From contig JAQWFN010000034.1 in assembly GCA_029238785.1 (NCBI GenBank), forward strand, positions 1 through 49,199: a stretch of 49,199 nucleotides of DNA, given 5' to 3'. Source of the stretch: Flavobacteriales bacterium. Its GTDB lineage: Bacteria > Bacteroidota > Bacteroidia > Flavobacteriales_D > Sanyastnellaceae. Position numbers and translations under genes: made by a program. The notes beneath the pieces were generated by a model. It ran no database searches and was not told the DNA's origin. It worked only from the letters and a program-made list of their open reading frames with translations. This document shows, piece after piece, positions 27,054-42,944 of the stretch (its first letter is position 1; every line of letters starts with the position of its first letter).

Positions 27054-27067
27054 GACCATGTTGAGGT

Positions 27068-27969: not shown

Positions 27970-27971
27970 GA

Positions 27972-28475
27972 TTATTCTGTTACTCGGTTGAAATTAAAAA
28001 TATAGATAACAGTTTCTGTTTCATTTTCACCTCCAAGACATCCTCTGAGCAATTCAAGATTGAGTTGGTTATCAAAGGGGCGAACCATTGAGCCGAGATC
28101 AAAGCTAAGCACTTGGTTACCGTCATCTAAAAAAAGTTGTGAAGGCACTTCATCATTGTCGAAAGACCAAGTTCCATTTTCACCAAAGTAGTTTTTACCA
28201 TTGGTTAACTCAACATCATAGGAACGATCTGAGGTGCTAAAAGAAAGGCGCAAAGGAACATCTACACCATTGTCGTAAATGTAGCTGAGGTCGCGTTCTT
28301 CTTTAATGGGGTTGTTGAGGTCTTTTTGGATGAACTGACTTAATTGCCAAGTTCCTGCCATACCCTGTACTTTATCAAAAGGTTCTCCTAATTCTCCTTC
28401 GAGTTTAGGTTTACACTGCCCTAGTAGGAGCGCAAGGCTCAAGAGCATAAAGGTATTTATAAATGTGCTTTTCAT
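27972..28475 (-). CDS. DUF5004-like lipoprotein of the Sus locus
   Basis: This 167-residue product has a lipobox (LLLGQC, Cys about residue 21). The mature chain includes VQGMAGTWQLSQFIQKD, then GENGTWSFDNDEVPSQLFLD and a C-terminal ETVIYIFNFNRV, the lipocalin-like plan of Bacteroidota DUF5004 proteins that are often seen in flavobacterial starch loci. The function is unknown; a surface or periplasmic role in glucan binding is a reasonable guess from context. It follows susD by 12 bp and precedes the next gene by 2 bp, so it is part of the same transcript. Confidence 0.68.
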   Translation of the reverse strand: MKSTFINTFMLLSLALLLGQCKPKLEGELGEPFDKVQGMAGTWQLSQFIQKDLNNPIKEERDLSYIYDNGVDVPLRLSFSTSDRSYDVELTNGKNYFGENGTWSFDNDEVPSQLFLDDGNQVLSFDLGSMVRPFDNQLNLELLRGCLGGENETETVIYIFNFNRVTE

Positions 28476-28487
28476 GATCTTTCCTTA

Positions 28488-29855
28488 TTAATTACAACCT
28501 CCTTCAGGATTCAATTGGAAACCAGATACTGAGGTTTCGCCGTTAGGGAATTGAAGGGCCATTCCTGGACAATCGTAAGGTGCATTTCTAATGGTGATCT
28601 CTTCACCAAGAGTGCCACGTCGTTTAAGATAATCAATCCAGACTCCTTCACAGATGGTTTCTTTGAACATTTCTTCACGAGCAGCATTGATAATGACTTC
28701 TGCAGCAGCGTCCATCGGAAGTTGGTTGATTCCTTCTCCAAAGGCTCTGGTTCTAATGGCATTTACATCAGCAACAGCCACGTCTAAGTCAATGTTCTGT
28801 GCAGCCAAAGCCTCAGCTCTCAAAAGGTGTAAGCCTGTAAGATGAACTAAAGGTACGTTGAAGTAGTTTGAACCGTTAAAACGAGTACTGAAATAGCTTC
28901 CGTTGTTGTTCTCAATCCAGTCGTTACGCATGTCGCTAGGGTTCAAAGAGAAGGTACTAAATACACTTTCACTCATACTTAAAACGGGAGTTCCAATATC
29001 AGAACGGTAGTTGTTGCTGAAACCGTCGTTTCTAAAGTCGTTGCTAAAGCTTACGATTCCAAAAACAGTTTCGGTGGAAATATTGTCTTGCTCATAACGG
29101 TCGAGGTCACTGTCCAAAGAGAAAGCATTGCTGTTAATCACTTCGGAAGCATAAAGCGAGGCATTCGGTAAATCGTTCATCAAGAAATAAACATGAGCCA
29201 GATATCCTGCCGCACTTAATCGACTTGCGTAGAAGCTGTTTTCAATAGGTAAGTTATCGTGAGCAAACCTCAAATCGGCAACAACAGCATCATACACTTC
29301 GCCAACAGTGTTTCTTCCAAGAGGCTCTTGAGAAGCTTCTAGGCGCAGTACAATTCCTAAGTGACCGTTGTTTGCAGTGTTGTTGTATGGTTGGGCGTAG
29401 AGCTTAACGAGAGACCAATGACAAAGTGCTCGAATAAATCGCGCTTCAGCTTCAATTCTACTCCGTTCAGCGTCGTCTAGTCCTTCAATAAAATCAAAAC
29501 TCTCTAGAACGGTGTTGCAACGATAAATAGCTCTGTAGAAATCAGAGTAAACTCCGTTGGTGGTAGAGGTAAAGAAGTTGGTTTGTCGGCCATAAACAGC
29601 GGCGTAATCGTTGTTGTCTTCTGGAAAGCTCAAGTTGTCTGTGAGCAATTCGCTCAAAACTTGAACTCTTCCATCGAAAAGGTTTCCAATAACGTCGTAG
29701 TTAGAATTGAGTAAGCGTTGTAGATCTTCTGGAGTCTTTAAAGCGTCTTCAGCAAGAATAACATCTCCAGGTTCAAATTCAAGTAGTTTATCACAAGCAC
29801 TCAAGGTCATTAAACCACAAGCGAGTATCAAAAGGTATTTATAGTTGATCTTCAT
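28488..29855 (-). CDS. susD: SusD/RagB-family glycan-binding lipoprotein
   Basis: This 455-residue lipoprotein (lipobox TLSAC, Cys21) acts with SusC as the lid of an outer-membrane glycan importer. Family signs: early LEFEPGDVILAEDALKTPED, the TPR-like helices (YSDFYRAIYRCNTVLESF, EARFIRALCHWSLVKLYAQP), VYDAVVADLRFAHDNLP and the later LHLLRAEALAAQ with NAIRTRAFG. The C-terminal end has the usual MFKETICEGVWIDYLKRRGTL. Neighbouring amylases and maltose phosphorylase indicate a starch or maltodextrin substrate. It is 12 bp after susC. Length is slightly shorter than B. thetaiotaomicron SusD but usual for flavobacterial maltodextrin loci. Confidence 0.93.
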   Translation of the reverse strand: MKINYKYLLILACGLMTLSACDKLLEFEPGDVILAEDALKTPEDLQRLLNSNYDVIGNLFDGRVQVLSELLTDNLSFPEDNNDYAAVYGRQTNFFTSTTNGVYSDFYRAIYRCNTVLESFDFIEGLDDAERSRIEAEARFIRALCHWSLVKLYAQPYNNTANNGHLGIVLRLEASQEPLGRNTVGEVYDAVVADLRFAHDNLPIENSFYASRLSAAGYLAHVYFLMNDLPNASLYASEVINSNAFSLDSDLDRYEQDNISTETVFGIVSFSNDFRNDGFSNNYRSDIGTPVLSMSESVFSTFSLNPSDMRNDWIENNNGSYFSTRFNGSNYFNVPLVHLTGLHLLRAEALAAQNIDLDVAVADVNAIRTRAFGEGINQLPMDAAAEVIINAAREEMFKETICEGVWIDYLKRRGTLGEEITIRNAPYDCPGMALQFPNGETSVSGFQLNPEGGCN

Positions 29856-29867
29856 GATAGTTAATGA

Positions 29868-32800
29868 TTAAAAGGCGAATGATAAGGTGAAGTTATAAGA
29901 ACGCTCTTGAGGCGGAGTGAGGTAAGTCACGTTCGGACTCAAGTTACGGTCCTGTGCATTTTCGAAGTCACGCGCCACTTCCGGGTCAAGCCCTGGGAAG
30001 TTTGTTAAGGTGAACAAGTTGGTTACATTCACGGCCAAACGCAGGTTGTTGAAGGTCATGTTCTTCACTTTCAAGTTCTGGAAAGTATAACCAAGGGCTA
30101 GGTTTCTCAAACGGAGGTAAGAAGCATCATAAACAAACAAGCTGGTGTTCCACCAAGGGAATCCTTCATCTAAGCCGTACTTGGTTTCATCCAGAGTAAG
30201 GATTGGGAATTCAGCAACATCGCCCGGTTGTCTCCAACGATCAAACTTATCCGTTCTCATGTTCCAAGAAGAAACAACTCCAAGTTGACGCTTGGCTGAA
30301 GAATCAAAGATTTTAGCACCAACGCTAAAGATGGCTAGAGCTTGTAGGTCCCAGTTCTTATAGCGGAAGCTGTTGGTCATACCACCGATGAAATCCGGCA
30401 ATCCATCACCAACATACTTTCTAATGGCGTTGTCGTAATCATAGGTTTCGTTTCCATTCAAGTCGAGGTAAACAGGCAATCCGTTTGCTTGATCCACATG
30501 GGAGAATTCAACCAAGTAAAAGCTACCTATAGGTTTTCCTACTATAACACGAGAATCGTTGGTACCACCAGATACAGCATCGGGAGTATAATTGCCGATG
30601 TCAACCAATTCATTATAGTTTCTTGCAATGTTGAAGTCGGTTGTCCACTCGAATTTACCAACAATGTTTCTCGACTTGATAGAGAATTCAACCCCACGGT
30701 TAAGGATTTGAGCTACGTTATCCCAGTAGTTGGTGAAACCAGTACTTGGCGATACGTTCACGTTCATCAAAACATCGTTAGACATTTTGTTGTAAACGCC
30801 CAATTCGAAGGTAACGCGGTCTTTCCAAAGTCCCATTTCAACCGACGCATCGATAACTCTTGAGGTTTCCCATTGCAAGTTCGGGTTGGCCAACTGTAAA
30901 GGGAAGAGGATGGCTTCATTACCATACAGAATTCCATTATCAGCAGCAGAGTAGGTTCCAAAACGCGCATAATCTGGAATATTTGCATTTCCTGTTAGTC
31001 CCCAAGAAGCTTTCACTTTCAAGAAAGAGATGTTTTTGCTGTCTTTTAAGAAGTCTTCTTCACTCACAATCCATCCTGCGGAAACAGAAGGGAAGAAGCC
31101 GTAACGGTTGTTTCTACCAAAACGAGAAGAGCCATCAACACGAGCGGTTGCTTGCACGAGGTAACGGTCTTTATAGGTGTAGTTTGCTCTACCGAAGTAA
31201 GACAAGAAACTAAACTGAGAAGGGTTTCCATTACGCTGTGGAGTAGGTACTTCTGCGGTAACTTCTTCAGAGTAACCATAGCTGTCTGAACGCTGAAACT
31301 CGGTTCCGGCCAAGAAGCCAAACTTATGATCTTCAAGCAAATCCCAATCGTAATTTGCGGTAAGTGAGTAGTTCCAGTTCAAGATGTAGTTGACATTCAA
31401 GAACGATTGAGAGAAGTCGCGAACGGTTGGAATAGGTTCTTCATCGATCTCTTCACGCAAAAACATCCAATCGAAACCACCACTGGCAACAATGTTGAGG
31501 TTCTTCACCGGATTCATGATCAGCCTCAAGTTGTTAACCGATCTGTTTTCGATGTTTCTCCAGCTTTTGAACGACTCTCGGTATCCAACAGGGTTCTTTG
31601 CTCCTCCAAATTCATCTCTCCAAATAAAGTATTCATCAGCGGGGTGAAGAATGTTTCCATCGGCATCAAAAACGGCATCTTCATAACGTTCAGGGTAGAA
31701 GGGGAGTGCATTCGACATGGCATCGCCTAATCCACCACTCCAAGCGGCATCAATACGGCTATTAACTCCTCGAGAAAGCGAAGTCGAAACCATGGCTTTC
31801 AACCATTTGTTTACGGTGTAATCGAAGTTAATTCGGCCACTAATACGCTCATATCCATTCCCAAGAAGGTAAGATTGATTGTCGTCATAAGACAAACCGG
31901 CATAGAGTCCATACTTCTCTCCACCTTTTCGAATTCCAACGCTGTACATTTGTTTCACACCGGTGCCAATGGTACGGTCAACCCAGTCGATGTCTCTTGT
32001 CATGGCCTCTTTATAAGCTAAGGCACGTGTTTCGGCATCATCGTCAGCAGTGGTGTAATTCGGCAACCACACATATCCTGTACCGCCGTCGTTTTCCCAG
32101 GCTTCTTGACGAAGTTGCAAATACTCTTCGGTATTGGTCATGTTTGGAAGTGTAGCTGGTGTAGAAATACCCACTCGAGAGGTGAAATCGATGGTGAGTC
32201 CTTTCTTCTTAGCACCTCTTTTTGTGGTGATGAGGATTACCCCATTTGCTCCTCTAGAGCCATAGATAGCGGTGGCAGAAGCATCTTTTAAGATTTCTAC
32301 AGACTCGATATCGTTGGGGTTTAAAGTAGCCAAGGGGTTGTTGTTCATGGCTCCTCCGTTTCCACGAATGAAATAGTCTTGTGTAATTGGAATACCATCC
32401 ACAACGTAAAGTGGATCACCACCGGCAGATACCGATGCCGTTCCACGCACACGAATGGTTGAAGCCGAGCCGGCCAAACCAGATCCTTGTGTTACTTGAA
32501 CACCAGCTGCTTGTCCTTGCAAAGCAGCTTCAAAACTTGGCGTTGGAAGCGCGGTAAGCGCCTTGGAGTCAACAGTGGCAATATTTCCGGTAACGTCTTT
32601 CTTGCGCTGCACACCGTAACCAACAACCACAACGTCGTCAATAAATACGGCATCAGGTTTCATCGAAATGTTCAGTTCCAAAGTTTGTCCGGCAGCTAAA
32701 TTGACTTTCTTGCTTTGTTTCTGATAACCGATAAAAGTAAATTCAAGGGTGTGTTCTCCTGCGCTTAAAGTAAGTGAGTAAGCTCCGTTCATATCTGTGG

Positions 32801-32954
32801 AAATCCCTTTAGCTCCGCCATCTGCAAGAACAGTGGCTCCGGGAAGTACAAGATTGTTTTCGTCGCTCACAATTCCTTTCACCGTTTGCGCATGCACAAA
32901 CGAGCTCAGAAAAATGACCATACTCGCTCCTAGAAGGAAGATCTTGGTTCTCAT
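29868..32954 (-). CDS. susC: SusC/RagA-family TonB-linked outer membrane importer
   Basis: I choose the start at 32954 (MRTKIFLLGASMVIFLSSF), giving a signal peptide and 1028 residues; the frame remains open 36 bp upstream. Parts in order: carboxypeptidase-regulatory-like domain (about 25-100, VKGIVSDENNLVLPGATVLA), TonB box region and plug (about 105-225) with VVVGYGVQRKKDVTGNI, IRVRGTASVSAGGDPLYVVD and the SusC signature GSRGANGVILITTKRG, then a long barrel ending SYNFTLSFAF. It transports oligosaccharides with energy from TonB. It heads the susC-susD-DUF5004-SusE/F-like operon. A 17-bp inverted repeat shared with the regulator and secreted-amylase promoters sits 48 bp before the start, next to a -7-like element. 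Confidence 0.95.
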   Translation of the reverse strand: MRTKIFLLGASMVIFLSSFVHAQTVKGIVSDENNLVLPGATVLADGGAKGISTDMNGAYSLTLSAGEHTLEFTFIGYQKQSKKVNLAAGQTLELNISMKPDAVFIDDVVVVGYGVQRKKDVTGNIATVDSKALTALPTPSFEAALQGQAAGVQVTQGSGLAGSASTIRVRGTASVSAGGDPLYVVDGIPITQDYFIRGNGGAMNNNPLATLNPNDIESVEILKDASATAIYGSRGANGVILITTKRGAKKKGLTIDFTSRVGISTPATLPNMTNTEEYLQLRQEAWENDGGTGYVWLPNYTTADDDAETRALAYKEAMTRDIDWVDRTIGTGVKQMYSVGIRKGGEKYGLYAGLSYDDNQSYLLGNGYERISGRINFDYTVNKWLKAMVSTSLSRGVNSRIDAAWSGGLGDAMSNALPFYPERYEDAVFDADGNILHPADEYFIWRDEFGGAKNPVGYRESFKSWRNIENRSVNNLRLIMNPVKNLNIVASGGFDWMFLREEIDEEPIPTVRDFSQSFLNVNYILNWNYSLTANYDWDLLEDHKFGFLAGTEFQRSDSYGYSEEVTAEVPTPQRNGNPSQFSFLSYFGRANYTYKDRYLVQATARVDGSSRFGRNNRYGFFPSVSAGWIVSEEDFLKDSKNISFLKVKASWGLTGNANIPDYARFGTYSAADNGILYGNEAILFPLQLANPNLQWETSRVIDASVEMGLWKDRVTFELGVYNKMSNDVLMNVNVSPSTGFTNYWDNVAQILNRGVEFSIKSRNIVGKFEWTTDFNIARNYNELVDIGNYTPDAVSGGTNDSRVIVGKPIGSFYLVEFSHVDQANGLPVYLDLNGNETYDYDNAIRKYVGDGLPDFIGGMTNSFRYKNWDLQALAIFSVGAKIFDSSAKRQLGVVSSWNMRTDKFDRWRQPGDVAEFPILTLDETKYGLDEGFPWWNTSLFVYDASYLRLRNLALGYTFQNLKVKNMTFNNLRLAVNVTNLFTLTNFPGLDPEVARDFENAQDRNLSPNVTYLTPPQERSYNFTLSFAF

Positions 32955-32987
32955 AAGTTGTTTTGGTTTAAAGGCACTTAAATTTAG

Positions 32988-32996
32988 CAAAATATA
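32988..32996 (-). promoter_or_regulatory. susC: Candidate -7 element for susC
   Basis: Minus-strand TATATTTTG is close to TAnnTTTG (one extra base). It lies 5 bp from the 17-bp inverted repeat at 33002-33018, nearly the same geometry as at the secreted amylase promoter. Confidence 0.4.
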
Positions 32997-33001
32997 ACAC
33001 G

Positions 33002-33018
33002 AGTGTTCAAATTACACT
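33002..33018. promoter_or_regulatory. susC: Predicted operator of the Nudix-type regulator, susC promoter
   Basis: AGTGTTCAAATTACACT matches 13 of 17 positions of the near-perfect palindrome between the regulator and pfkA (AGTGTAAAGTTTACACT); the outer AGTGT/ACACT arms are identical. It would cover the region just upstream of the predicted -7 element of susC, so a bound protein should block RNA polymerase. Confidence 0.6.
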
Positions 33019-33037
33019 TTGTGTTTTTCAACAGCTC

Positions 33038-35872
33038 TTAATCGGCCTGAACAAGTAGTGTTTGGCGACTAATTTGCTTGTCGTTTGCTATTTCAATCAC
33101 ATAAACTCCACTAGGCAATTTATCTAATCCATTCAGCTGGTAGTTGTTCATTCCAACACTTACAATGTCAATGACTTTGCTCAGGTTTTTTCCGCTGAGG
33201 TCAAGAATGTTGATTTCTACATCTTGTCCATTCAACCAAGAATCATCTAAAACAATGGTGCTTTGATGACTACTTGGGTTAGGGTAAAGCTTGAAATTAG
33301 CTTCTACGCTTACTTCATCAACATTCACATCAATCACTGGCGTTTCTAAAGGAACTGAGGTGTATAAACGGTACTCGCCTGGTTCGAGGAAGAAGGCATT
33401 GTTCAAATCGTTTACTTGAATCGCTTCCCCGGTAAAGTAATCATACCAAGTTCCAGTATTTTGGAAGCCAGGGATCATGTTGATGCCAACCACATCGAAG
33501 TTCCCAATAATGGTCACATTCATGCTGGCGTGGTTCAAGTGAATGCGCTTACCAAATCCACCCAAGTCGATGTTGTAATCCGTAGTTGAGAAGGCAGGCT
33601 CAGTGATTTTTAGGTTGTTCAAGGCTGCGGTTACATTATACAAACGCTGACGAGCAGATACATCCCAATAATCCCAACGAATAGGTTTGTTGCCTGTTCT
33701 ACAATCTTCATTGATGGTTCCATCTGTGCAGTAGTTGATGGAGTAATCGTAGCCCAATTCGCCAAATTGCCACATCATTTTCGGACCAGGGATTGGGAAT
33801 AGGAAGCACGAAGCCAATTCAACTCGAGCTAAAGCGGTATTGAGTTGCGTAATGTTATAGCCGTTCGCACTGTTTCCGAACAAGAGGTTCTTGTACATCA
33901 AACGCTCTTCATCATGGCTTTCCATGTAGCTAATCAAATTAGGGTTGTTCCATCCACGCTCTTGGTAAGACGCCCAAGAGAGGTTAGAAGAGTAGCCCAT
34001 CGTAGCTTCGTTGTATTCTTGGTTGATGTTTCCCCAAAGCATGAAACCCTGATTGGCCAGTGCGGTTTCTTCACTGTTGTCTGCGAAATGCTCAAGGATC
34101 ATATATGCTCCAGGCTCAACGCTCCAAACATGGTTTTTGTAGTCGTTCAAAATGTCCACACGGCTTTGATCATAAGCGTTCCAAGCTCCAATGTTTCCTA
34201 AGGTATTGTTCTGGGTGAAGCCTTTTGAAAGGTCTAAACGATATCCATCAATATGATACTCTTCAATCCAATGTTCGAGCACACGCTTACAGAATTCGCG
34301 GGTATGCGGACTCTCATGGTTGTAGTCGTATCCTACGTTGAAGTCATGACGAGGAACCGTATTGAACCAAGGGCTTTCAGCTGTTGGAGCTCCAAACTGA
34401 CCGTTATTTGGGTCGAAATACATTCTTACTTGGGGGTTCTGACCAAAACTGTGATTTAAGGCGATGTCCATAATCACTGCAATTCCACGGTTATGACACT
34501 CATTGATAAAAGACTTGTAAGAAGCGCTGTTTCCGTAGTATTTGTCTGGAGCAAAAAAGAACGAAGGATTATAACCCCAGCTCTCGTTGCCTTCGAACTC
34601 GTTCACAGGCATCAACTGAATGGCGTTTACACCTAAATTTTGAAGGTAGTCCAAACTGTCTTGCAAGGTGGCATAGTCATGGGCTTCAACATAATCACGA
34701 ATGAGCGTTTCGTAAATCACGAGTTTGTCGTTTGATGGACGAACATAGCTATCATCTGTCCAATCAAAAGGTACCTGAGCCGTTTGAAGAATGGCAACAG
34801 GTTGCGTAGTGAGTCCGCTTGGGTAATCAATGAGGTTAGGATAAGTATCTTCTGAAATCCATTGATCGTTCCAAGGGTCAAGCATTTTTTCAGTGTAGGG
34901 GTCGGCAATTCTAATGTTGTCTGACTCAATGAAGTACTGAAAACGGTATTCTTGTCCAGCGGTCAAACCACCAATTTCCAACCAAAAAGTTTCACCATCT
35001 GTATCGAGATTCATGAGGTAGTCTTCGTCGAAATTCCAGTTATTGAAATCACCAATTACAAAGATATTCGACTTGTTTGGTGCAAAGATTTGAAGCACTA
35101 CCGTGTTGTCGTCAATGTAGTTGATTCCATCCTGAATTCCAGCTGGAGCTGCTTGCACATTTTGATCACCAATAACGACAATCTGAACTTCATCAATGGC
35201 CGTTTCAACTCCATTGTCTGCTGAGAAGGTAATGATGTAGGTGCCTGCGCTTGTAGGGGTGAAGATGTACTCCAATTCGGTAGTAGCAAGCGCACTTGCT
35301 TCCTCTGTTCCGTTAACTAAAATGCTCAGGTCTGCTGGTGCAGAACACTGTGCGTTGATGGTGGTGCTCTCGTTCTCTTCTAGGATGATACTCTCGGTGT
35401 CAGGACTAATGATTTGTGCTGTGAAGCTACCATCGGTCAAAGAATAAAAAATATCACCTCCATCAGCGGTCTTTCCTTCTTGAGAGCCCGTTTGGTTTCT
35501 GAAAACCATGGCCAAAGATTCAATCACTTCTCCAACATTCACCCCGTAAAACTGAGCAAGTGTTTGTCCACCAAAATCAAAAGAATGGATATTATTCCCG
35601 AGGGGCGACATCAAAACGTTGGCGTCTGCAGTCCCCCAATTTCCCTGTACATGTTGCCAACTTGTTTCAGTGGCAGACAGGTTTGTAATTACGCCAGTAT
35701 GGATATAAACGGGTATTGTTCCTACCAGGCCACCATTACCTTGTGTAGCGTCGTAGTACAATATTACTTCATCATCTTGGGTAGGGAAAGCAGGTTCAGT
35801 CCAAACAATCTGTGCGTTTAATCCGCTTAAAATCAGGCAGAAGAGCGCTAGTAGTGATAGCTTTTTCATCAT
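33038..35872 (-). CDS. T9SS-secreted multidomain GH13 alpha-amylase
   Basis: This 944-residue enzyme (start at 35872 or the adjacent ATG 35869) has a signal peptide, an N-terminal putative starch-binding module (about 20-150), an Ig-like segment (about 155-230), a CBM48-like module (about 245-345, VVLQIFAPNKSNIFVIGDFN), then the GH13 barrel (about 380-770). Active-site regions: MDIALNHSFG, GYRLDLSKGF (nucleophile Asp near 547), ILEHFADN (acid/base Glu near 590) and MESHDEER (near 652). A T9SS type A sorting domain (LYPNPSSHQSTIV to SRQTLLVQ) ends the chain. It should digest starch or glycogen outside the cell, releasing maltodextrins for SusC/SusD. The promoter carries the predicted operator and an exact TATATTTG element. 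Confidence 0.92.
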   Translation of the reverse strand: MMKKLSLLALFCLILSGLNAQIVWTEPAFPTQDDEVILYYDATQGNGGLVGTIPVYIHTGVITNLSATETSWQHVQGNWGTADANVLMSPLGNNIHSFDFGGQTLAQFYGVNVGEVIESLAMVFRNQTGSQEGKTADGGDIFYSLTDGSFTAQIISPDTESIILEENESTTINAQCSAPADLSILVNGTEEASALATTELEYIFTPTSAGTYIITFSADNGVETAIDEVQIVVIGDQNVQAAPAGIQDGINYIDDNTVVLQIFAPNKSNIFVIGDFNNWNFDEDYLMNLDTDGETFWLEIGGLTAGQEYRFQYFIESDNIRIADPYTEKMLDPWNDQWISEDTYPNLIDYPSGLTTQPVAILQTAQVPFDWTDDSYVRPSNDKLVIYETLIRDYVEAHDYATLQDSLDYLQNLGVNAIQLMPVNEFEGNESWGYNPSFFFAPDKYYGNSASYKSFINECHNRGIAVIMDIALNHSFGQNPQVRMYFDPNNGQFGAPTAESPWFNTVPRHDFNVGYDYNHESPHTREFCKRVLEHWIEEYHIDGYRLDLSKGFTQNNTLGNIGAWNAYDQSRVDILNDYKNHVWSVEPGAYMILEHFADNSEETALANQGFMLWGNINQEYNEATMGYSSNLSWASYQERGWNNPNLISYMESHDEERLMYKNLLFGNSANGYNITQLNTALARVELASCFLFPIPGPKMMWQFGELGYDYSINYCTDGTINEDCRTGNKPIRWDYWDVSARQRLYNVTAALNNLKITEPAFSTTDYNIDLGGFGKRIHLNHASMNVTIIGNFDVVGINMIPGFQNTGTWYDYFTGEAIQVNDLNNAFFLEPGEYRLYTSVPLETPVIDVNVDEVSVEANFKLYPNPSSHQSTIVLDDSWLNGQDVEINILDLSGKNLSKVIDIVSVGMNNYQLNGLDKLPSGVYVIEIANDKQISRQTLLVQAD

Positions 35873-35892
35873 GTTTTCTTAATGGTGAGTTT

Positions 35893-35900
35893 CAAATATA
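35893..35900 (-). promoter_or_regulatory. Candidate -7 element (TATATTTG) for the secreted amylase
   Basis: On the minus strand TATATTTG is an exact match to TAnnTTTG, ending about 20 bp before the start codon at 35872. The 17-bp inverted repeat begins 6 bp further upstream. Confidence 0.55.
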
Positions 35901-35906
35901 CAACAA

Positions 35907-35923
35907 AGTGTCGCTCGTACACT
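35907..35923. promoter_or_regulatory. Predicted operator of the Nudix-type regulator, secreted-amylase promoter
   Basis: AGTGTCGCTCGTACACT shares the AGTGT/ACACT arms and 17-bp length of the sites at 33002 and 38955. It lies in the 53-bp gap between the CotH gene stop and the amylase start, over the expected -33 region, with an exact -7 element 6 bp downstream. Confidence 0.6.
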
Positions 35924-35925
35924 AT

Positions 35926-38163
35926 CTAAGATTTCACCAATCTATATGTCCTATGATTTACTCGGAGCAAATAAATACCAGGTGAAAGCCTTGATAAATC
36001 TAAGCTAGATTGCTCTTTGAAAGTAAGAATTTGACTTCCTTGGATGTTCATAAGCTGCCCTGAACAGGCCTGAGAGAAGTTCAATTGGTCAGAAAAGGGG
36101 TTTGGGTATAAAATGAAGTCTGAAACAAAGTCTTGATCGGCCACACTAATGACAGCGGAATTGCTCAAATCAGGAGTTGGCGTAGTGAAAAGTACCCACT
36201 CATCAGCACCATCTGTAATTCTTCCAATGCTGCTGTTGCTGCTAAGGTTACCAAAGGCGCGTTCATCCATTAATCGATATTCACCTTGCTCTACGGAGTA
36301 AAGGTACAGTTCATCGCCACTGTTCTGAAGGTTGAAATTGGCATGGAACGGACCTTGTTCTGCGTCGTTATCGAGCCAAAACAACACCCAATCTCCTGCT
36401 TCTAAGGTGAGGTTGGGCATTTGCCATTTATTGGGTTCTGAGGCCGAATTACTGAGGTACTTATTTCCTAAGAAGATGGCGGAAGTACCCGCGTTGTATA
36501 GTTCACACCAGTCGTCAAACTCTCCAAACTCATCGCTAATGAAGTTGGTGTTGGAAGACATGATTTCATTAATTACCAAAGGAGTTTCGCTTTTGCTTGT
36601 CCACATGATTTCTTCACAGCTCCATTCGCTCCACTGTCCCTCATACAATGCCCGAGCGCGATAGGTGATTTGTTGAACATTGGTTTCGACAATGACATCA
36701 GCACTCCACCATTGGTCGTTAGCAAAAAGGTCAGACTCTAGTCCGTCATCGAGCATCTCAACATTAATAACTTCCTCGGGAGTAGTGCTGTTCCAGTATT
36801 GTAACTGGACCCCCGTAGCGCCATTCGTTTCGGCTTGAATAAGTGCGTTGCCGCTGGATAAGTTGTTCTGATAATATAGACTCAAACTGAAATCATCATC
36901 CTGTTCTTCAAGTTGGTTCAAGGCAAAGCTGGCTCGGGATGTAACAAATTCTGTTATACTCATGGGGATGTGTCCTCCCCAGGCCTCTGAAATGGCGTCG
37001 CTAAAATCGTCATTCGTAAAACCATAATCCAAAGCTTTGTATTCATCTGCTAAGGCATCAGGCAAAATAAGGGCTTGCATTTCTTCAAGTCGCTCATTGA
37101 CCAAGGTTGAAGAATAAATTTGCGCCAAGGCCTCATCCATATATGCGGTAAAACGAGATCGATATTCGGGCACTTCCATGATGTTGTCGTAGAGCGGACG
37201 ATCGCCAAAACTCCACTCATAAATATTCCGTTCATCCCAAGCTTCTCCGAAAAAGTCTACGCCCAAAGAGTTGTCCAAATCATAACTGAGAAAGTAGAAG
37301 CGGTCGTCAGCCGGATTGTGATAGAGATAATAGTTGTTTTGATTCACTGAGTAGCCGTCCCAATGACCAAATAGAATTTCATACACCAAAGTTTTTAAGT
37401 AGGCATTCACGTTAAAAACAGCTTCTAAATCGCATTGAAAGTTTTCTTCTGGGCTGTTGTTGAGTACATCTATAAAGCGAGCGAGGCCGCTGTAATCGTC
37501 TGCTTCGGTATTGGTTTTTAGTTCATAAATACGTTGGCCCCATGGAGCTAACTTATAGGCATCAGGATTGTCGCCAAGAAATTCAAGATTGGTGCCGTAG
37601 ATGCATTTGTAGAGGTTTCCGCTCTTGTTCCCAAATCGCTTTTCAATGAATTCTTCGTCGATGTGCTCCACATTGAGATAGAGTCCGCAGTATTCTTCAT
37701 TAATATATAAGGCAACATGACTGGTACGAGAGGAGGGAAGGTTTGCTTCGCGAAGCATTTCCCAACAAATTTTCGAACGCATAATCGAAACATCGTTGTG
37801 CTCCCCATTGAGGTTCATCTTCTCTAAACCTCGATAACTTTGATTGTTGTCGAAGGTGTTGAACGACACTTTAAACGATTTCTTAGCGGCTTGTCTTGAG
37901 GTGTTTCCCCTCAAGCGAAAACCGATGTTGAGAATGGTGTCTTGAATTTCTTCGCTACTATAAATAAATGTAGCAGGGTATTCATGGTCGAGAAACAAGT
38001 TCTCTTCCAAGAGCATTTCGGCCAAGCTATCAGGATGGATTTCTACCTTAATAATGGCCACTTCATTTTGTAAAAAAGCTTCGTTGTATTCTGGCTGAAG
38101 CAATTGCCCATGACTGAGCAAAGTAAGTATCAAACATGATATGGCCAGAGCGAATTTTCTCAT
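35926..38163 (-). CDS. CotH-kinase-like surface protein with lamin-tail domain and T9SS tail
   Basis: This 745-residue secreted protein starts with a signal peptide (1-19, ending LSHGQ). Residues about 55-370 are a CotH domain: FRLRGNTSRQAAKKSFKVSF, KMNLNGEHNDVSIMRSK, YINEEYCGLYLNVEHID, and FLSYDLDNSLGVDFFGE. Spore-coat CotH proteins of this family are atypical protein kinases. A lamin-tail domain follows (about 520-650: LVINEIMSSNTNFISDEFGE, WCELYNAGTSAIFLG). The end (FILYPNPFSDQLNF to HRTYRLVKS) is a T9SS type A sorting domain. Its start codon overlaps the stop of the regulator gene (ATGA), so it is in the regulator's operon, and it ends just before the amylase promoter. A role in glucan use is possible from context only. 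Confidence 0.85.
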   Translation of the reverse strand: MRKFALAISCLILTLLSHGQLLQPEYNEAFLQNEVAIIKVEIHPDSLAEMLLEENLFLDHEYPATFIYSSEEIQDTILNIGFRLRGNTSRQAAKKSFKVSFNTFDNNQSYRGLEKMNLNGEHNDVSIMRSKICWEMLREANLPSSRTSHVALYINEEYCGLYLNVEHIDEEFIEKRFGNKSGNLYKCIYGTNLEFLGDNPDAYKLAPWGQRIYELKTNTEADDYSGLARFIDVLNNSPEENFQCDLEAVFNVNAYLKTLVYEILFGHWDGYSVNQNNYYLYHNPADDRFYFLSYDLDNSLGVDFFGEAWDERNIYEWSFGDRPLYDNIMEVPEYRSRFTAYMDEALAQIYSSTLVNERLEEMQALILPDALADEYKALDYGFTNDDFSDAISEAWGGHIPMSITEFVTSRASFALNQLEEQDDDFSLSLYYQNNLSSGNALIQAETNGATGVQLQYWNSTTPEEVINVEMLDDGLESDLFANDQWWSADVIVETNVQQITYRARALYEGQWSEWSCEEIMWTSKSETPLVINEIMSSNTNFISDEFGEFDDWCELYNAGTSAIFLGNKYLSNSASEPNKWQMPNLTLEAGDWVLFWLDNDAEQGPFHANFNLQNSGDELYLYSVEQGEYRLMDERAFGNLSSNSSIGRITDGADEWVLFTTPTPDLSNSAVISVADQDFVSDFILYPNPFSDQLNFSQACSGQLMNIQGSQILTFKEQSSLDLSRLSPGIYLLRVNHRTYRLVKS

Positions 38164-38873
38164 TTGAGTTCCTCGTCGCGTTCAAATCTGAATAACTGCG
38201 CCGGTTTGTGCAGCACGCCTTGTTGTTTTTCGTCTAAAGGAATCACTTGGTCCATCTTTTTGATGTTCTTTCTAAAATTCCGTTTATCGAGTTTTTTATC
38301 GAGGATGATTTCGTACAAAAGCTGTAGCTGACCTAGGGTGAATTTGTCGGGCAAGAGTTCAAATCCAATGTACTTGCTGTCTAACTCTTCGCGAAGGGTC
38401 TTAATGCCTTCATCAACGATATCGTTATGATCAAAAGCCAGAGAAGGAACGTCGTTTACATCAATCCAACTAGCATTTCTAGCAAAACTTGATGCTTCTG
38501 GTTGATAATCCTCCATGCGCACAAGGCTATAATATCCAACAGTAATCACGCGCTGATCCGGATTGGCTCGAAACGTCCGCAGCCAATCTTGATCTTTTAG
38601 TCCTTTTACTCTGTTGGGGTCGCCAAAGGTGTGGAACTGCTTTAAATAGATTCCTTCCAAAGAGGTTAACTCTTTTAAAACACGGGCTGCACTGTCGTCT
38701 AATCCTTCCTCTTCTTGAACCAAATCTCCCGGTAAAGCGAACTGTAGCTTTTCTTTTGGGAAGTTTTCTGCCGGACTCTGCTCAATAAGAAGTAATTTCA
38801 AGGACTCACCATCGAATCCAAAAACAACACAGTCCACTGAAATGTCGACACCATTAACAGCATACTTATTCAT
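38160..38873 (-). CDS. Nudix-fold transcriptional regulator (NrtR/AraR type), likely sugar regulator
   Basis: This 237-residue protein has an N-terminal Nudix-like domain (about 8-150) and a C-terminal winged helix (about 165-237, FTLGQLQLLYEIILDKKLDK, FRKNIKKMDQVI, GVLHKPAQLFRF), the architecture of NrtR and of Bacteroidota AraR regulators. The Nudix box region reads G49-x5-E55 then AARVLKELTSLEGI, so the REUxEE core needed for hydrolysis is not kept; the domain is probably a ligand sensor rather than an enzyme. In Bacteroidota this family controls sugar genes. It lies between the Sus/amylase genes and the diverging glycolysis/maltose operon, and a 17-bp palindrome in the intergenic region recurs before susC and the secreted amylase, so it is the natural candidate to bind all three. 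Confidence 0.82.
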   Translation of the reverse strand: MNKYAVNGVDISVDCVVFGFDGESLKLLLIEQSPAENFPKEKLQFALPGDLVQEEEGLDDSAARVLKELTSLEGIYLKQFHTFGDPNRVKGLKDQDWLRTFRANPDQRVITVGYYSLVRMEDYQPEASSFARNASWIDVNDVPSLAFDHNDIVDEGIKTLREELDSKYIGFELLPDKFTLGQLQLLYEIILDKKLDKRNFRKNIKKMDQVIPLDEKQQGVLHKPAQLFRFERDEELK

Positions 38874-38894
38874 AAAGTCTCATTTACTTTCGGA

Positions 38895-38902
38895 CAAAGT
38901 TA
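38895..38902 (-). promoter_or_regulatory. Candidate -7 element (TAACTTTG) for the regulator gene
   Basis: Minus-strand TAACTTTG matches TAnnTTTG exactly and ends 21 bp before the start codon at 38873. No good -33 element is seen at the ideal spacing. Confidence 0.45.
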
Positions 38903-38954
38903 CTAAACAAAAGCGAAGGAGGAGAGTGATAAAAACAAGACTTAAATTTCAATA

Positions 38955-38971
38955 AGTGTAAAGTTTACACT
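38955..38971. promoter_or_regulatory. Predicted operator, near-perfect palindrome between regulator and pfkA
   Basis: AGTGTAAAGTTTACACT has 8-bp arms and one central base, the best copy of the motif in the window. It is 29 bp before the pfkA start, and touches a weak -7-like TAACTTCG (38971-38978) on plus. It lies about 80 bp from the regulator start on minus, so autoregulation and control of the pfkA operon are both possible. Confidence 0.65.
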
Positions 38972-39000
38972 AACTTCGATTTCTCGATTATTTTATCTGC

Positions 39001-39972
39001 ATGAAAAAAATAGGAGTATTAACATCAGGGGGAGATGCCCCAGGCATGAACGCTGCAATTAGAGCAGTGGTTCGTGCGTGTGTTTATAAAGACATAGAAT
39101 GCGTGGGCATTTTCAAGGGGTATGACGGATTAATCAACGGTGATTTTAAAAAGTTGAATGTTCGTTCGGTAGCTAAGATTCTTGGTAGAGGAGGCACCAT
39201 ATTGAAAAGTGCGCGTTCTGACGAGTTTAGGACAAAAGAAGGTAGAAAACAAGCCTTCGAAGCCTGTCAAAAACAGGGCATTGATGGTTTAATTACTATT
39301 GGTGGAAATGGAACGTTCACTGGAGCTAAGATTTTTCATGAGGAGTATGGAATTCCTGTTGTAGGTATTCCGGGAACCATCGACAACGACCTTTACGGAT
39401 CAGATAATACCATAGGTTATGACACAGCTACCAATACAGTAGTTGAGGCCATCGATAAGATTAGAGATACGGCCAACAGCCACAATCGCTTGTTTTTTGT
39501 TGAAGTGATGGGGCGTGATGCAGGCTTCATCGCTTTGAGAGCGGGAATCGCTACTGGTGCTATCGCAGTGATGTTGCCAGAAGAAGAATTGAGCATTGAT
39601 GAGCTCATTGCAATCCTTGAAAAAGGAGCGGAAAGCAATAAAACCAGCTCAATAGTTATTGTGGCTGAAGGCGATGCAAATGGCGGTGCCTACGAAGTAG
39701 CTAAAAAGGTGAATGCGAAATATGCCCAGTATGAAACAAGAGTAACAGTTCTGGGACACATACAAAGGGGCGGTTCTCCTTCTGCTTGGGACCGAGTATT
39801 GGCCAGCCGATTAGGAGTTGCGGCTGTGGAAGGTTTAGTTGCAGGAGAAACCAACTCAATGGCCGGTTTGGTCAATGATCAAATCAAATACACCCCGCTG
39901 GAAACTTCCATCAGCATGAAATTCCAATTAAATAAAGAAGAGTTAAGAATAGCTAAGATACTTTCTATATAA
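39001..39972 (+). CDS. pfkA: 6-phosphofructokinase (ATP-type, Asn at position 103)
   Basis: Phosphorylates fructose 6-phosphate to fructose 1,6-bisphosphate in the cytosol. At 323 residues it has the normal length. Motifs: TSGGDAPGMNAAIRAVVR, GGTILKSARS, PGTIDNDLYG (catalytic Asp), FVEVMGRDAG and LGHIQRGGSPSAWDR. The nucleotide site, usually GGDGS in ATP-dependent enzymes, reads GGNGT: residue 103 is Asn (codon AAT, 39307-39309) in place of the Asp that contacts Mg-ATP in E. coli PfkA. Gly104, which marks ATP rather than PPi use, is present. First of six genes in a tight plus-strand run (gap to gapA 6 bp), downstream of the predicted operator. In this operon it serves glucose 6-phosphate made from maltose. 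Confidence 0.93.
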   Translation: MKKIGVLTSGGDAPGMNAAIRAVVRACVYKDIECVGIFKGYDGLINGDFKKLNVRSVAKILGRGGTILKSARSDEFRTKEGRKQAFEACQKQGIDGLITIGGNGTFTGAKIFHEEYGIPVVGIPGTIDNDLYGSDNTIGYDTATNTVVEAIDKIRDTANSHNRLFFVEVMGRDAGFIALRAGIATGAIAVMLPEEELSIDELIAILEKGAESNKTSSIVIVAEGDANGGAYEVAKKVNAKYAQYETRVTVLGHIQRGGSPSAWDRVLASRLGVAAVEGLVAGETNSMAGLVNDQIKYTPLETSISMKFQLNKEELRIAKILSI

Positions 39973-39978
39973 ACAAAC

Positions 39979-40968
39979 ATGATAAAGAGAATTGCAATCA
40001 ACGGTTTCGGACGAATTGGTCGTCTTACTTTCAGAGCACTATTAGCAAATCCTAAAGTAACAGTAGTTGCTATCAATGATTTGACTGATGTTAAAACACT
40101 TGCTCACTTGCTTAAGTATGATAGTGTGCAAGGTGCATTTAAAGGAGAAGTTGAAGTTGAAGGGAACGACCTTCGCGTAAATGGTGAGTTGGTGAAAGTT
40201 TGCGCCAATAGAAATCCTGAAGAATTGCCTTGGGGCGAAATGAATATCGATGTTGTGGTTGAATCAACAGGAGTGTTCACCAACAGAGAAGGGGCTTCTA
40301 AGCACATTACTGCTGGAGCTAAGCGAGTTGTTATTTCAGCTCCTGCTAAAGGCGATATCAAAACCATTGTTTTGGGTGTGAACGACGATGAACTTACTCC
40401 AGAAGATGACATCGTTTCTAATGCATCTTGCACCACCAATTGCCTCGCTCCAATGGCGAAAGTTTTGGACGATACCTTTGGGATTGAAAAAGGATACATC
40501 ACAACAATTCACGCCTACACGGCAGATCAACGTTTGCAAGATGCACCACATAGCGATTTGAGAAGAGCCCGTGCTGCCGCTTTAAGCATGATTCCAACAA
40601 CTACAGGAGCAGCTGCTGCAGTAGGTTTGGTATTGCCTCAGTTGAAAGGTAAACTCGATGGTATGGCGGTTCGTGTTCCTACACCAACCGGATCTATGAC
40701 CGACCTTACTGCTGTGTTGAAAAAAGAGGCAACAGCAGAAGAAATAAATGCAGCCATGAAAGCAGCGGCAGACGGACCAATGAAAGGGATTCTTCAGTAT
40801 GTTACTGACCCGATTGTTTCAATAGATATTGTAGGAAATACACATTCATGTATTTTTGACAGCGATTTAACCGCAGCGAATGGTACCTTGGTCAAAGTAA
40901 TGTCCTGGTACGACAATGAAGCAGGTTATGCAACGCGTGTTGCTGATTTGCTAGATAGAATGGGATAA
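39979..40968 (+). CDS. gapA: Glyceraldehyde-3-phosphate dehydrogenase, type I
   Basis: NAD-dependent enzyme converting glyceraldehyde 3-phosphate to 1,3-bisphosphoglycerate. The 329 residues include the Rossmann start [16 protein letters not shown], the active-site [12 protein letters not shown] (catalytic Cys near 151), IHAYTADQ (His near 178), GRAAA-type [20 protein letters not shown], and the C-terminal [12 protein letters not shown]. No residue changes stand out. It follows pfkA by 6 bp and precedes the kinase gene by 18 bp. Placement of the main GAPDH in a maltose operon suggests that glycolytic flux is set together with starch supply. Confidence 0.97.
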
Positions 40969-40986: not shown

Positions 40987-41859
40987 ATGATACTAATTGC
41001 GGATAGCGGATCGACAAAGTGCGATTGGTTGTTGATAGATGAAAAGGGAGAGCGATTGAACGAATACCGTTCAATCGGTCTCAATCCGTATTTCCACAGT
41101 GCAGATTTTATTGCAAAAACCCTTTCGGAAAACACAGAAATGATGCTAACGGCAAAGGACATCGAGAAAGTTTATTTCTACGGTGCCGGAGCTTCTACAT
41201 CGCGTTTGTGTAAAATTATTGAAGAGGGCTTGGCAAGCGTATTTGTTAATGCGGAAGTAATTGTAGATCACGATTTGGTAGGCGCGGCTTACTCGGTTTA
41301 CGACGGACGAACAAACATCACCTGCATCATTGGAACAGGATCAAATTCTTGCCGCTTCGATGGCAAAGAGGTATATGAAGAGGTGCCTGCACTGGCCTAT
41401 ATTTTGGGCGATGAAGCCTCAGGATCGTACTTTGGGAAAATGCTTATCGCTAACTATTTCTATAAACGCCTTCCAGAAGAACTCATGAAACGTTTCGAAG
41501 AGACCTATCATCTGACTAAAGATGATATGATCGATGCGGTTTATAAAAAAGACAATGCCAACGTGTACCTGGCGTCATACATGAAGTTCTTTACTCAGAA
41601 TGGTGGTCACCCGCTTTTAAGAGAGTGGGTGAAAGAAGGAATTCGCAAGTTCATCGACATTCATGTGAAGTGTTTTGATAATTGGAAAGAACTTCCAGTG
41701 CACTTTATTGGTAGTGTAGGTTACTATTTTGAAGATACCCTAAAAGCGGTTTGTAAGGAAGAAGGAGTTCATTTAGGCACCATCATCAAAAAACCGGTTT
41801 ACACTTTGGCAGACTATCACGTCAAGTATATCTTCGCCAAGAAACAAGAAAACGTATGA
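40987..41859 (+). CDS. BadF/BadG/BcrA-type sugar kinase, possible glucokinase or GlcNAc kinase
   Basis: This 290-residue ASKHA-fold kinase has the phosphate-1 loop at the start (LIADSGSTKCDWLLID), the connecting segment YFYGAGAS, phosphate-2 IIGTGSNSCRFDG, a LGDEASGSYFG motif (as in N-acetylglucosamine kinases) and an adenosine-type loop VHFIGSVGYYF. Most Bacteroidota members are annotated as N-acetylglucosamine kinase. Maltose phosphorylase, three genes downstream, releases free glucose, and no other glucose kinase is present in this operon, so a glucokinase activity is the simplest explanation here; the substrate is unproven. The stop codon overlaps the start of the following gene by 4 bp, indicating coupled translation. 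Confidence 0.72.
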   Translation: MILIADSGSTKCDWLLIDEKGERLNEYRSIGLNPYFHSADFIAKTLSENTEMMLTAKDIEKVYFYGAGASTSRLCKIIEEGLASVFVNAEVIVDHDLVGAAYSVYDGRTNITCIIGTGSNSCRFDGKEVYEEVPALAYILGDEASGSYFGKMLIANYFYKRLPEELMKRFEETYHLTKDDMIDAVYKKDNANVYLASYMKFFTQNGGHPLLREWVKEGIRKFIDIHVKCFDNWKELPVHFIGSVGYYFEDTLKAVCKEEGVHLGTIIKKPVYTLADYHVKYIFAKKQENV

Positions 41860-42278
41860 TTAAGAACATTGCCGTTGTTGCACATAACAAAATGAAGCCC
41901 GCGCTGGCGGCATTTCTTCAGGAAAGGAAAGACTGGTTGTGGGGAAGAAAAATCATTGCAACAGGTTTAACGGCAGATGCCTTAGTCAGTGCAGATATCG
42001 ACCTTGACATCATGCACCTCAGCGAAGGTAAATCAGGCGGCTATCTTGAACTTAAAAAGATGGTAGAAGAAGGAGAGATTGCCATGGTGCTCTATTTCCG
42101 TGATTCAGACCTCAGCCAAGAATACGAAGATGAAGTTTCGGCTTTCATCAATGCCTGTAATCGCCAAAATATTCCCCTTGCTACAAATCCAGCAAGTGCA
42201 GAACTATTGATTCTTGGTTTAATCAAAAAAGAAGCAGCAGAATTGATCAAAAGCAGAACCGAAGCAGACTTAAGCTAA
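41856..42278 (+). CDS. Methylglyoxal synthase-like protein, catalytic residues altered
   Basis: This 140-residue MGS-fold protein aligns with methylglyoxal synthase, which turns dihydroxyacetone phosphate into methylglyoxal. IAVVAHNKMK keeps the His (H10, E. coli H19); IATGLTADAL keeps most of the phosphate-binding Thr loop; IPLATNPASAELLI is the usual end. But the catalytic GGDQQ is GGYLE (Y63 at E. coli D71), the FWDPLNAVPHDPDV segment is FRDSDLSQEYEDEV (D83 kept, H98 to Y90, D101 to E93) and VAHD is VAHN. Enzyme activity is therefore doubtful; it might sense triose phosphate or have another role. It overlaps the kinase gene by 4 bp and sits in a pfkA-gapA operon, where such a sensor would make sense. 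Confidence 0.78.
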   Translation: MIKNIAVVAHNKMKPALAAFLQERKDWLWGRKIIATGLTADALVSADIDLDIMHLSEGKSGGYLELKKMVEEGEIAMVLYFRDSDLSQEYEDEVSAFINACNRQNIPLATNPASAELLILGLIKKEAAELIKSRTEADLS

Positions 42279-42290
42279 GCCAGAAAAACC

Positions 42291-42944
42291 ATGAGCATTA
42301 AAGCATGTATTTTTGATATGGACGGAGTTATTGTTGACTCCGCTAAGTACCATTTTATCGCATGGCAAGAGCTCGCTGCAGAAATTGGTGTGAGTTTTAC
42401 AGAAGAAGATAACGAACAACTCAAAGGATTGAGCAGGGTAGATAGCCTTGAACGTATCCTAAAAATGGGAGATCTTTATCTCGACAACGACACAAAGTTG
42501 GCGCTCATGGATAAAAAGAACGAGTCTTATCTAAAATACATTGAGTCGATGAACGAGTCGGAAATCCTCCCCGGTGTGGCTCAGTTTATCAACGAACTCG
42601 AAGCGGCAGGAATTAAAATTGCCTTAGGAAGTTCGAGCAAAAATGCAACGGTGATCCTCGAAAGAATCAATCTGCTCTCAAAATTTGGAGCTGTGATCGA
42701 TGGTAATAAAGTCACCTTCTCCAAGCCAGACCCGGAAGTATTCCTCCGAGGGGCAGAGGCTTTGCAAGTAGAAGCTCACGAATGTGTTGTCTTTGAAGAT
42801 GCAACTGCAGGAGTTAAAGCGGCCATCGACGGCGGCTTTAAATGTGTCGGAATTGGTGATGAAAAGGTACTAAACCAGGCCCATTTCGTTATCCCAGGCT
42901 TTGAGAACTTCAGCCTGAAAAACCTTATTGAACGTTTTAACTAG
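42291..42944 (+). CDS. pgmB: beta-Phosphoglucomutase (HAD superfamily)
   Basis: Converts beta-glucose 1-phosphate, the product of inverting maltose phosphorylase, to glucose 6-phosphate. The 217 residues have the HAD motifs in order: FDMDGVIVDS (nucleophile D10 and general acid/base D12), the cap domain with EEDNEQLKGLSRVDSLERIL, GSSSKNATVIL (motif II Ser/Thr), FSKPDPEVFL (Lys of motif III) and VVFEDATAGVKAAIDGG (motif IV). The cap GxSR and the GSSSKNA signature are those of PgmB rather than of other HAD phosphatases. It is 17 bp upstream of the GH65 gene that makes its substrate. Confidence 0.93.
   Translation: MSIKACIFDMDGVIVDSAKYHFIAWQELAAEIGVSFTEEDNEQLKGLSRVDSLERILKMGDLYLDNDTKLALMDKKNESYLKYIESMNESEILPGVAQFINELEAAGIKIALGSSSKNATVILERINLLSKFGAVIDGNKVTFSKPDPEVFLRGAEALQVEAHECVVFEDATAGVKAAIDGGFKCVGIGDEKVLNQAHFVIPGFENFSLKNLIERFN

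Follow-up and report, generated by a model that had tools for sequence, protein, structure and literature searches.

Palindromic promoter sites suggest that one Nudix-derived regulator switches central carbon metabolism in a group of Flavobacteriales

Background

In a DNA stretch of 49,199 nucleotides from Flavobacteriales bacterium (assembly GCA_029238785.1, contig JAQWFN010000034.1, positions 1 to 49,199; hereafter the window), a gene for a Nudix-type transcriptional regulator stands between genes of starch digestion and uptake on one side and, divergently, the phosphofructokinase gene pfkA on the other. The question raised by this locus is how far the control by such a regulator would reach. 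An original prediction, made from the sequence alone, held that a 17-bp inverted repeat, AGTGT-N7-ACACT, marks three promoters here, and that the regulator binds all of them and joins extracellular starch digestion, uptake and upper glycolysis in one regulon. Below we report the analysis of these sites in the window, in the whole genome and in relatives, together with that of the protein and of the promoters.

Sites in the window and in the genome

A scan of the whole window finds the exact AGTGT-N7-ACACT at three positions, with no fourth match (Table 1). The three palindromes of the original prediction are thereby confirmed as exact and as lying in short intergenic gaps, namely those between susC and the amylase gene, between the amylase and CotH genes, and between the divergent regulator and pfkA genes. 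In 100 dinucleotide-preserving shuffles the mean is 0.05 exact sites per window, and three were never reached. The Bacteroidota -7 consensus is TAnnTTTG, which was used for all -7 scoring here. The predicted spacing between site and -7 element is also found, with 5 bp at susC, where the string TATATTTT has 5/6 consensus letters, and 6 bp at the amylase gene.

A genome-wide search for the motif had been named beforehand as a test, and its hits fall mostly at sugar and central carbon genes. Exact sites number 12 in the whole genome of this bacterium; the window rate would predict about 3, and a backwards control pattern has 5 matches. None of the 12 is in a gene body, and two share bases with the stop codon of the gene before them. 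According to family searches, the genes 3' of the sites comprise four starch genes (a GH13 lipoprotein, a CBM-rich starch-binding protein, susC and the amylase) plus an MFS sugar transporter, six genes of central carbon or nitrogen metabolism, and one of unknown role, which encodes a 139-residue HAD-like protein. The six are pdhB (divergent from an etfB-like gene), gdhA for NADP-glutamate dehydrogenase (GDH), pckA for ATP-dependent phosphoenolpyruvate carboxykinase (PEPCK), pyk for an IPExxxVDY-pyruvate kinase, pfkA followed by gapA, and pgi. The claim of one regulon for starch digestion, uptake and upper glycolysis is supported by this, and the regulon would be much larger than claimed, with pgi, pyk, pckA, pdhB, gdhA and more starch genes added.

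Similar sets are seen in other genera. For example, the single-contig genome G013 has 17 exact sites and shares 9 of the 12 targets (GH13 lipoprotein, gdhA, pckA, HAD, pyk, CBM-rich protein, amylase, pfkA and pgi), with orthology judged from search matches, families and by eye. Its other eight sites are at genes for GlgE, monomeric isocitrate dehydrogenase, serine hydroxymethyltransferase, DnaA (dnaA) and a histidine kinase, at an aminotransferase-type gene, between two further genes (L312), and within a coding sequence (L314). Genome G006 has nine sites, six of which belong to targets shared with the present genome (pyk, pgi, pfkA, amylase, gdhA and pckA).

Imperfect sites were considered as well. 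One-mismatch sites were rejected for widening the regulon, since genome-wide they number 59 against 70 for the control. A sample of 14 stretches, picked by eye among the matches listed, holds 16 sites with at most one mismatch; 8 are inside open reading frames (ORFs), 2 are at an ORF edge (L332 and L337, called coding by the script) and 6 are called intergenic, among which L328 overlaps the 3' end of an ORF. Two one-mismatch sites look real, one before a CBM48/SusE-like protein (L333) and one before dnaA (L327). The gap between a thioesterase-like gene and dnaA carries a site in two genera, with one mismatch in the present genome (L327, C50) and exact in G013 (L313), a hint that carbon state and the initiation of replication may be linked. 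In addition, a HAD-like protein of 139-140 residues has an exact promoter site in two genera (L005/L324, L311).

Conservation of the sites and co-occurrence with the regulator

Conservation was counted from 80 genomes (49 for gdhA and the MFS transporter), with at most 30 best matches read per search. An exact site lies upstream of the regulator in 22 of the 30 loci read. Among the 21 close loci L014-L034, 14 have a PFK motif beside the regulator, and in all 14 the exact site stands between the two genes. No PFK motif was seen in the other seven, the stretch of L029 being too short to judge; upstream of the regulator, six of them carry a site with one mismatch and L027 one with two. The two counts (14/14 and 22/30) are not independent, since the close loci and the genomes of the relatives search share contigs (e.g. 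L014 = G001, L015 = G006, L017 = G002). The conservation beside orthologous regulators holds in most loci, with the exceptions given below. As side observations, L025 and L027-L032 are a sister group without pfkA beside the regulator, where a flavin-oxidoreductase-like ORF is divergent instead in L025, L028 and L032, and one-letter variants of the site are near GH65 in L025, L027, L028, L030 and L032. L020 and L028 are metagenome-assembled genomes (MAGs) titled Chryseobacterium gleum; they carry this regulator at 67-69%, as the other Flavobacteriales MAGs do, and the species label looks doubtful.

Nine genomes were read across the locus. Since all nine had been selected for carrying the regulator site, the presence of the pfkA site in them is no test, and the test is the amylase site. 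In six of the relatives the stretch read spans the entire starch locus, and in all six the amylase site is exact and 5-6 bp before TATATTTG. In G008, G012 and G031 the pfkA site is present, and no amylase gene was found within the stretch fetched. Outside the locus, the exact site is found at pyk in 15/30 genomes and at pckA in 12/30, and one site is at the 3' end of the MFS transporter gene in G000, G013 and G010. The sites mostly keep near-constant positions at each gene with changed spacer letters.

The sites were also counted in the 80 genomes against the best regulator identity, with no correction for relatedness. Genomes with a regulator of at least 64% identity (n = 28) average 8.2 sites, against 0.88 in genomes with no match (n = 17; p 1.9e-7), and a control motif makes no difference with regulator presence (p 0.31). 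By identity, the mean is 12.25 sites at 74% or more (n = 8), 6.6 at 64-73% (n = 20), 3.6 at 44-54% (n = 13) and 1.7 at 30-43% (n = 6). Two regulator fragments enter these comparisons: that of G029 (59 aa, 71%) was set by hand to 71% in the site counts, and that of G044 (73%) belongs to the 64-73% group and was added to the regulator-positive set for pyk and pckA. The exact pyk site is present in 15 of 19 genomes with a regulator of at least 60% and in 0 of 11 counted as without, five of these 11 carrying a 51-54% homolog; for pckA the counts are 12 of 21 and 0 of 9. A loss case is G042 (two contigs, 99% complete), a congener of G013 and G032. These two have 17 and 19 sites; G042 has one site and no regulator match, and its pyk and pckA promoters keep their -7 elements with the sites gone. 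The relatives search gave no pgi match in G042, and thus this genome may have lost more of sugar metabolism.

Several results qualify this picture. Imperfect sites are in excess neither genome-wide, as given above, nor in the window, where sites with up to two mismatches number 25 against 20.6 expected. In three g9 genomes no site stands beside the regulator, not even one with a single mismatch. The susC site of the original prediction is present in the window and is not strictly conserved, being exact in 0/6 orthologous loci and present with one mismatch in 2/6. Exact sites are found at pgi in 8/29 genomes, at gdhA in 8/30, upstream of the MFS transporter in 6/30 (G000, G001, G051, G008, G020 and G021) and at pdhB in 4/30; for this reason pdhB was rejected as a core target and is taken as peripheral. 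Sites are few where the ortholog has 55-63% identity (mean 2.5, 16 genomes), G029 with its fragment has none, and the genomes of the co-occurrence analysis are not phylogenetically independent. Autoregulation is uncertain, as the pfkA-side site is 52 bp upstream of the putative -7 element of the regulator gene. With all this weighed, it is still probable from the sequence evidence that one NrtR/AraR-type regulator governs a wide sugar regulon via AGTGT-N7-ACACT, and the original interpretation of a regulon is supported.

The regulator protein and its relation to BtAraR

The protein had been placed among NrtR/AraR-type Nudix regulators, and its domains and fold agree with this. A Nudix-like N-terminal domain (PF00293) is followed by the NrtR winged helix-turn-helix (HTH; PF21906), both above cut-off. 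The AlphaFold model (mean pLDDT 81.8) has its best fold match in BtAraR, 5bs6 (Z 24.9, 209 aligned residues, rmsd 2.5), and the next in Shewanella NrtR (Z 22.4); BtAraR is also the closest solved relative by sequence (phmmer, 1.1e-40). A family search with E up to 0.01 finds it as the sole NrtR_WHD protein of the genome, which is 99.57% complete. Read by eye, the Nudix box is degenerate with respect to the signature GX5EX7REUXEEXGU (PMC4666351): REUXEE is changed to ARVLKE, with two of the three E gone, and the next G is T.

BtAraR, the NrtR-family regulator for L-arabinose in Bacteroides (BT0354; PDB 5bs6, 5dd4, 5ddg, 5deq), offers a detailed comparison, as far as covered by the parts of its description available to us (PMC4666351). 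It has likewise a Nudix-like domain with a degenerate Nudix box and a winged HTH, and it controls SusCD and glycosidase genes through AGTGT-N7-ACAC[TC] sites. In its DNA complex the GTGT half sites are recognised in the major groove by K179, R180, N181 and K184, the minor groove is read by the wing residues K204 and R205, and its gel-shift probes contained AGTGTATTTGATACACC, AGTGTTACTTTTACACC and AGTGTAAAAAAGACACT, the same motif as here (PMC4666351). The recognition helix DKRNFRK is identical in the two proteins, all four helix residues being kept, and the wing residues are H and K in the window regulator. In the Flavobacterium and Mesonia relatives (L036 and L043) NRGNFYRK replaces DKRNFRK, and no site with at most one mismatch was found in these two loci. 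In the Ignavibacteriales locus L048, GGTGT-N7-ACACC is upstream of a 42% relative, with one letter changed per arm.

The two proteins differ at the ligand site and in their targets. Of the three arabinose contacts of BtAraR, R86 and H131 are kept as R88 and H149, which are invariant in 19 sequences, and R34 is replaced by Q32; Q is found in 11 of 12 close sequences, that of the window included, and R in one. Directly after the R86 equivalent there is a 15-residue insertion with respect to BtAraR, common to the 12 close sequences, missing in L035, L048, L052, L054 and L056, and replaced by another insertion in L036 and L043. The sites here are at central metabolism and starch genes, and no arabinose gene was seen adjoining the 12 sites of this genome. 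Judged by the three contacts and by control of arabinose genes, the protein would not be an AraR proper. The change of R34 to Q and the insertion point to a separate branch, probably with a ligand other than arabinose. Among other family members, XylR (BT0791) of Bacteroides is alike as an NrtR-family protein with a sugar regulon in Bacteroidota and differs, by its description, in acting on xylose (PMC3878776, PMC4666351).

Promoter geometry and the proposed switch

The original prediction took the closeness of site and -7 element as the geometry of a repressor. In a first run the -7 element was sought only 12-70 bp upstream of the start codon. There, 37 of 38 pfkA, pyk and pgi sites with a -7 of at least 5/6 are within -34 to +25 bp of it, a count that leaves out 7 of 45 sites whose best -7 is below 5/6 (5/22 pfkA and 2/15 pyk). 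All 20 pckA and gdhA sites are 44-168 bp upstream of a 6/6 -7 in the same run, mostly at 77-78, 89, 100-102 and 111-112 bp: the pckA distances are 100-102 or 111-112 with one outlier of 168, and those of gdhA are 77-78, 89, 102 and 44. Since the 12-70 bp limit forces a long distance on far sites, the geometry was rerun without it. A -7 of at least 5/6 is then at the site in 44/45 pfkA, pyk and pgi cases versus 7/20 for pckA and gdhA, a 6/6 -7 at the site in 15/45 versus 1/20, and a 6/6 -7 near the start codon in 12/45 versus 20/20. For pyk the best string under the limit sometimes overlaps the site and is probably wrong; its alignment shows a conserved TATYTTTA or TATTTTTA shortly 3' of the site, and 7 other genomes have a 6/6 -7 just upstream of it. 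Counted from the end of the site, the -7 strings of at least 5/6 at the starch genes of the present genome start at -1 for the GH13 lipoprotein, at 0 for the CBM-rich protein, at +5 for susC and at +6 for the amylase.

A protein sitting on a core promoter most likely represses, and one about 100 bp upstream of it more likely activates. The repressor geometry thus stands for the starch and glycolytic targets and not for pckA and gdhA, which look activation-like with the site far upstream of the -7 element. Some cases do not fit so clean a division. Two of the pfkA sites left out of the 38 (L106 and L109; g8, 4/6) are 64 and 81 bp from the best -7, and that of L112, kept within the 38, is 153 bp away. 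The periodicity per genus at 10.5 bp has p 0.03 for pckA and 0.12 for gdhA, with other periods fitting equally well or better, and helical phasing at these two genes is only suggestive.

We propose the following switch, in which DNA binding, effector, repression and above all activation are what we infer. The regulator, dimeric like its relatives, would bind AGTGT-N7-ACACT, about 21 bp with A/T flanks, and control sugar metabolism globally in this lineage of Flavobacteriales. Without a sugar signal it would occupy the core promoters of the starch genes, pgi, pfkA-gapA and pyk and block them; a sugar or sugar phosphate in the former Nudix active site would release it, and digestion, uptake and glycolysis would rise together. 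At pckA and gdhA, with the site mostly 77-112 bp upstream of the core promoter, the bound regulator would more likely activate. PEPCK and GDH would then be on, and glycolysis and starch genes off, when sugar is absent, and the reverse when it is present, in a Cra-like manner. That a Nudix-derived, AraR-like protein is in this way a single dual regulator, repressing starch digestion and glycolysis and activating pckA and gdhA, is a tentative proposal to which we give slightly less than an even chance. In enterobacteria Cra/FruR, of the LacI family, represses glycolytic and activates gluconeogenic genes. The promoter geometry found here fits Cra, and global glycolysis control plus gluconeogenesis is likewise shared with HexR, an RpiR-family protein covering glycolysis and pckA, and CceR, of the LacI family, both in Proteobacteria as far as the available parts of the source go (PMC5507952). 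The difference is in the families, LacI, RpiR and LacI there and NrtR in another phylum here.

A simpler scheme, possible if rather doubtful, is a plain repressor at all targets, with pckA and gdhA having a second promoter beside the site or being repressed from a distance, and pckA working anaplerotically during sugar growth. BtAraR would fit it, since it loses DNA affinity on arabinose binding and its operon is then upregulated, as stated in the parts of the source available (PMC4666351). A -7-like TTAGTTTG (5/6) abuts the pckA site in the present genome, and a 5/6 -7 is at the site in 4/12 pckA and 3/8 gdhA cases. However, the abutting TTAGTTTG is not kept in G001, G016 and G018, whereas near the pckA start codon TAnnTTTG is present in 14/14 aligned genomes (TAATTTTG in 11), G042 included, four of the 14 being without the site; the two narrow sets of pckA distances also argue against this scheme.

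Nature of the signal and of the DNA-binding protein

The signal of the proposed switch might be a nucleotide (ADP-ribose, NAD or ATP) reporting the energy or redox state and not a sugar, as for the NAD-metabolism regulators NrtR (Shewanella, 3gz5/3gz6) and NadQ (7q91-7q94), which share the fold and domain order. We consider this unlikely. In the fold comparison SoNrtR and NadQ come among the next-ranked structures, the targets gapA, gdhA and pdhB either consume or supply NAD(P)H, and the same motif is beside NAD-synthesis-like genes in two Patescibacteria; on the other hand, no NAD gene was seen adjoining the 12 sites, and BtAraR, the nearest solved relative in both sequence and fold, binds a sugar. 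The Patescibacteria loci (L054 and L056) have exact AGTGT-N7-ACACT near nadE-, pncB- and nadK-like genes, which we take to be genes of NAD synthesis. In these organisms the same operator seems to be used for NAD control, and the motif may therefore be old in the NrtR family and the sugar regulons later.

As the link between regulator and palindrome is read from sequence, another transcription factor could bind the sites, with the Nudix protein merely neighbouring one of them. This is very improbable given a recognition helix identical to that of BtAraR, a binder of the same motif, the site counts that track the regulator where those of the control motif do not, the exact site in 14/14 close loci with pfkA, and the one family member found in the genome. 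A chance set of 12 sites with a coincidental link to sugar genes, for which the five backwards matches and the lack of one-mismatch excess might be cited, has next to no probability and is regarded as already refuted, as 12 sites were found where about 3 are expected, all lie outside gene bodies, and the same targets recur in other genera with different spacer letters.

Genes of the locus

The features of the locus are collected in Table 1. The gene order downstream of pfkA is kept in relatives for the genes so marked. A secreted CotH-kinase gene adjoins the regulator in six of the nine genomes whose loci were read across, the exceptions being G012, G016 and G031, and ORFs that by eye are similar to CotH follow the regulator in L025, L028 and L032, where pfkA is gone.

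Table 1. Sites, putative -7 elements and genes of the locus in the window
Feature	Position	Strand	Remarks
GH13 alpha-amylase family enzyme	24666..27083	-	Locus end; PF00128 161.7 bits
Two SusE/F-position proteins	27100..28475	-	DUF5004; DUF4961 below cut-off
SusD-like lipoprotein	28488..29855	-	PF14322, PF07980
SusC-type TonB-dependent transporter	29868..32955	-	PF13715, PF07715; ATG ~32955, mechanical ORF to 32990
Putative susC -7 element TATATTTTG	32988..32996	-	Sequence reading
Site AGTGTTCAAATTACACT, upstream of susC	33002..33018		Exact match
Secreted GH13 alpha-amylase	33038..35872	-	Type IX sorting tail; PF00128, PF18962
Putative amylase -7 element TATATTTG	35893..35900	-	6/6 consensus letters; 6 bp from site
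Site AGTGTCGCTCGTACACT, upstream of secreted GH13 amylase	35907..35923		Exact match
Secreted CotH protein	35926..38163	-	Type IX sorting tail; PF08757, PF18962; 4-bp overlap with regulator gene
NrtR/AraR-type regulator, 237 aa	38160..38873	-	Degenerate Nudix domain and winged HTH; PF21906 NrtR_WHD 90.7 bits, AraR_C, NUDIX
Putative regulator -7 element TAACTTTG	38895..38902	-	Read from sequence
Site AGTGTAAAGTTTACACT, between regulator and pfkA	38955..38971		Exact match; perfect palindrome about central base
Putative pfkA -7 element TAACTTCG	38971..38978	+	5/6 consensus letters; overlaps last palindrome base
pfkA, 6-phosphofructokinase	39001..39972	+	PF00365 373.7 bits
Presumably gapA-like glyceraldehyde-3-phosphate dehydrogenase	39979..40968	+	Downstream of pfkA; named from its translation; order kept in relatives
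Presumably BadF/NagK-type sugar kinase-like protein	40987..41859	+	Named from its translation; order kept in relatives
140-aa ORF	41856..42278	+	Same gene row as pfkA; ORF list
Presumably beta-phosphoglucomutase-like HAD protein	42291..42944	+	Named from its translation; order kept in relatives
GH65 maltose-phosphorylase-type enzyme	42962..45241	+	PF03632 441 bits

Significance

In the parts of the open-access literature available to us, the sugar regulators of Bacteroidota act on single sugars or polysaccharide loci, the one global regulator being a Crp-like factor of Bacteroides. No NrtR-family regulator of glycolysis in Bacteroidota was found among the matches listed from open-access full texts, subscription papers being outside this scope. 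What is new here is the regulon and the dual geometry, the protein family and the motif being already known. With named sites, named targets and the loss case G042, the prediction is directly testable.

Our analysis suggests that one Nudix-derived regulator switches central carbon metabolism in a Flavobacteriales group. If true, polymer digestion, uptake, glycolysis and gluconeogenesis would be joined under one conserved regulator of Flavobacteriales, which would explain the choice between sugar polymers and protein in such bacteria, and the NrtR family would be added to LacI and RpiR as a source of global carbon regulators. A dual regulator, if that part is true as well, would let the cell change over from a diet of polysaccharides to one of amino acids and back, and this role would have arisen independently of that of the LacI and RpiR regulators in Proteobacteria.

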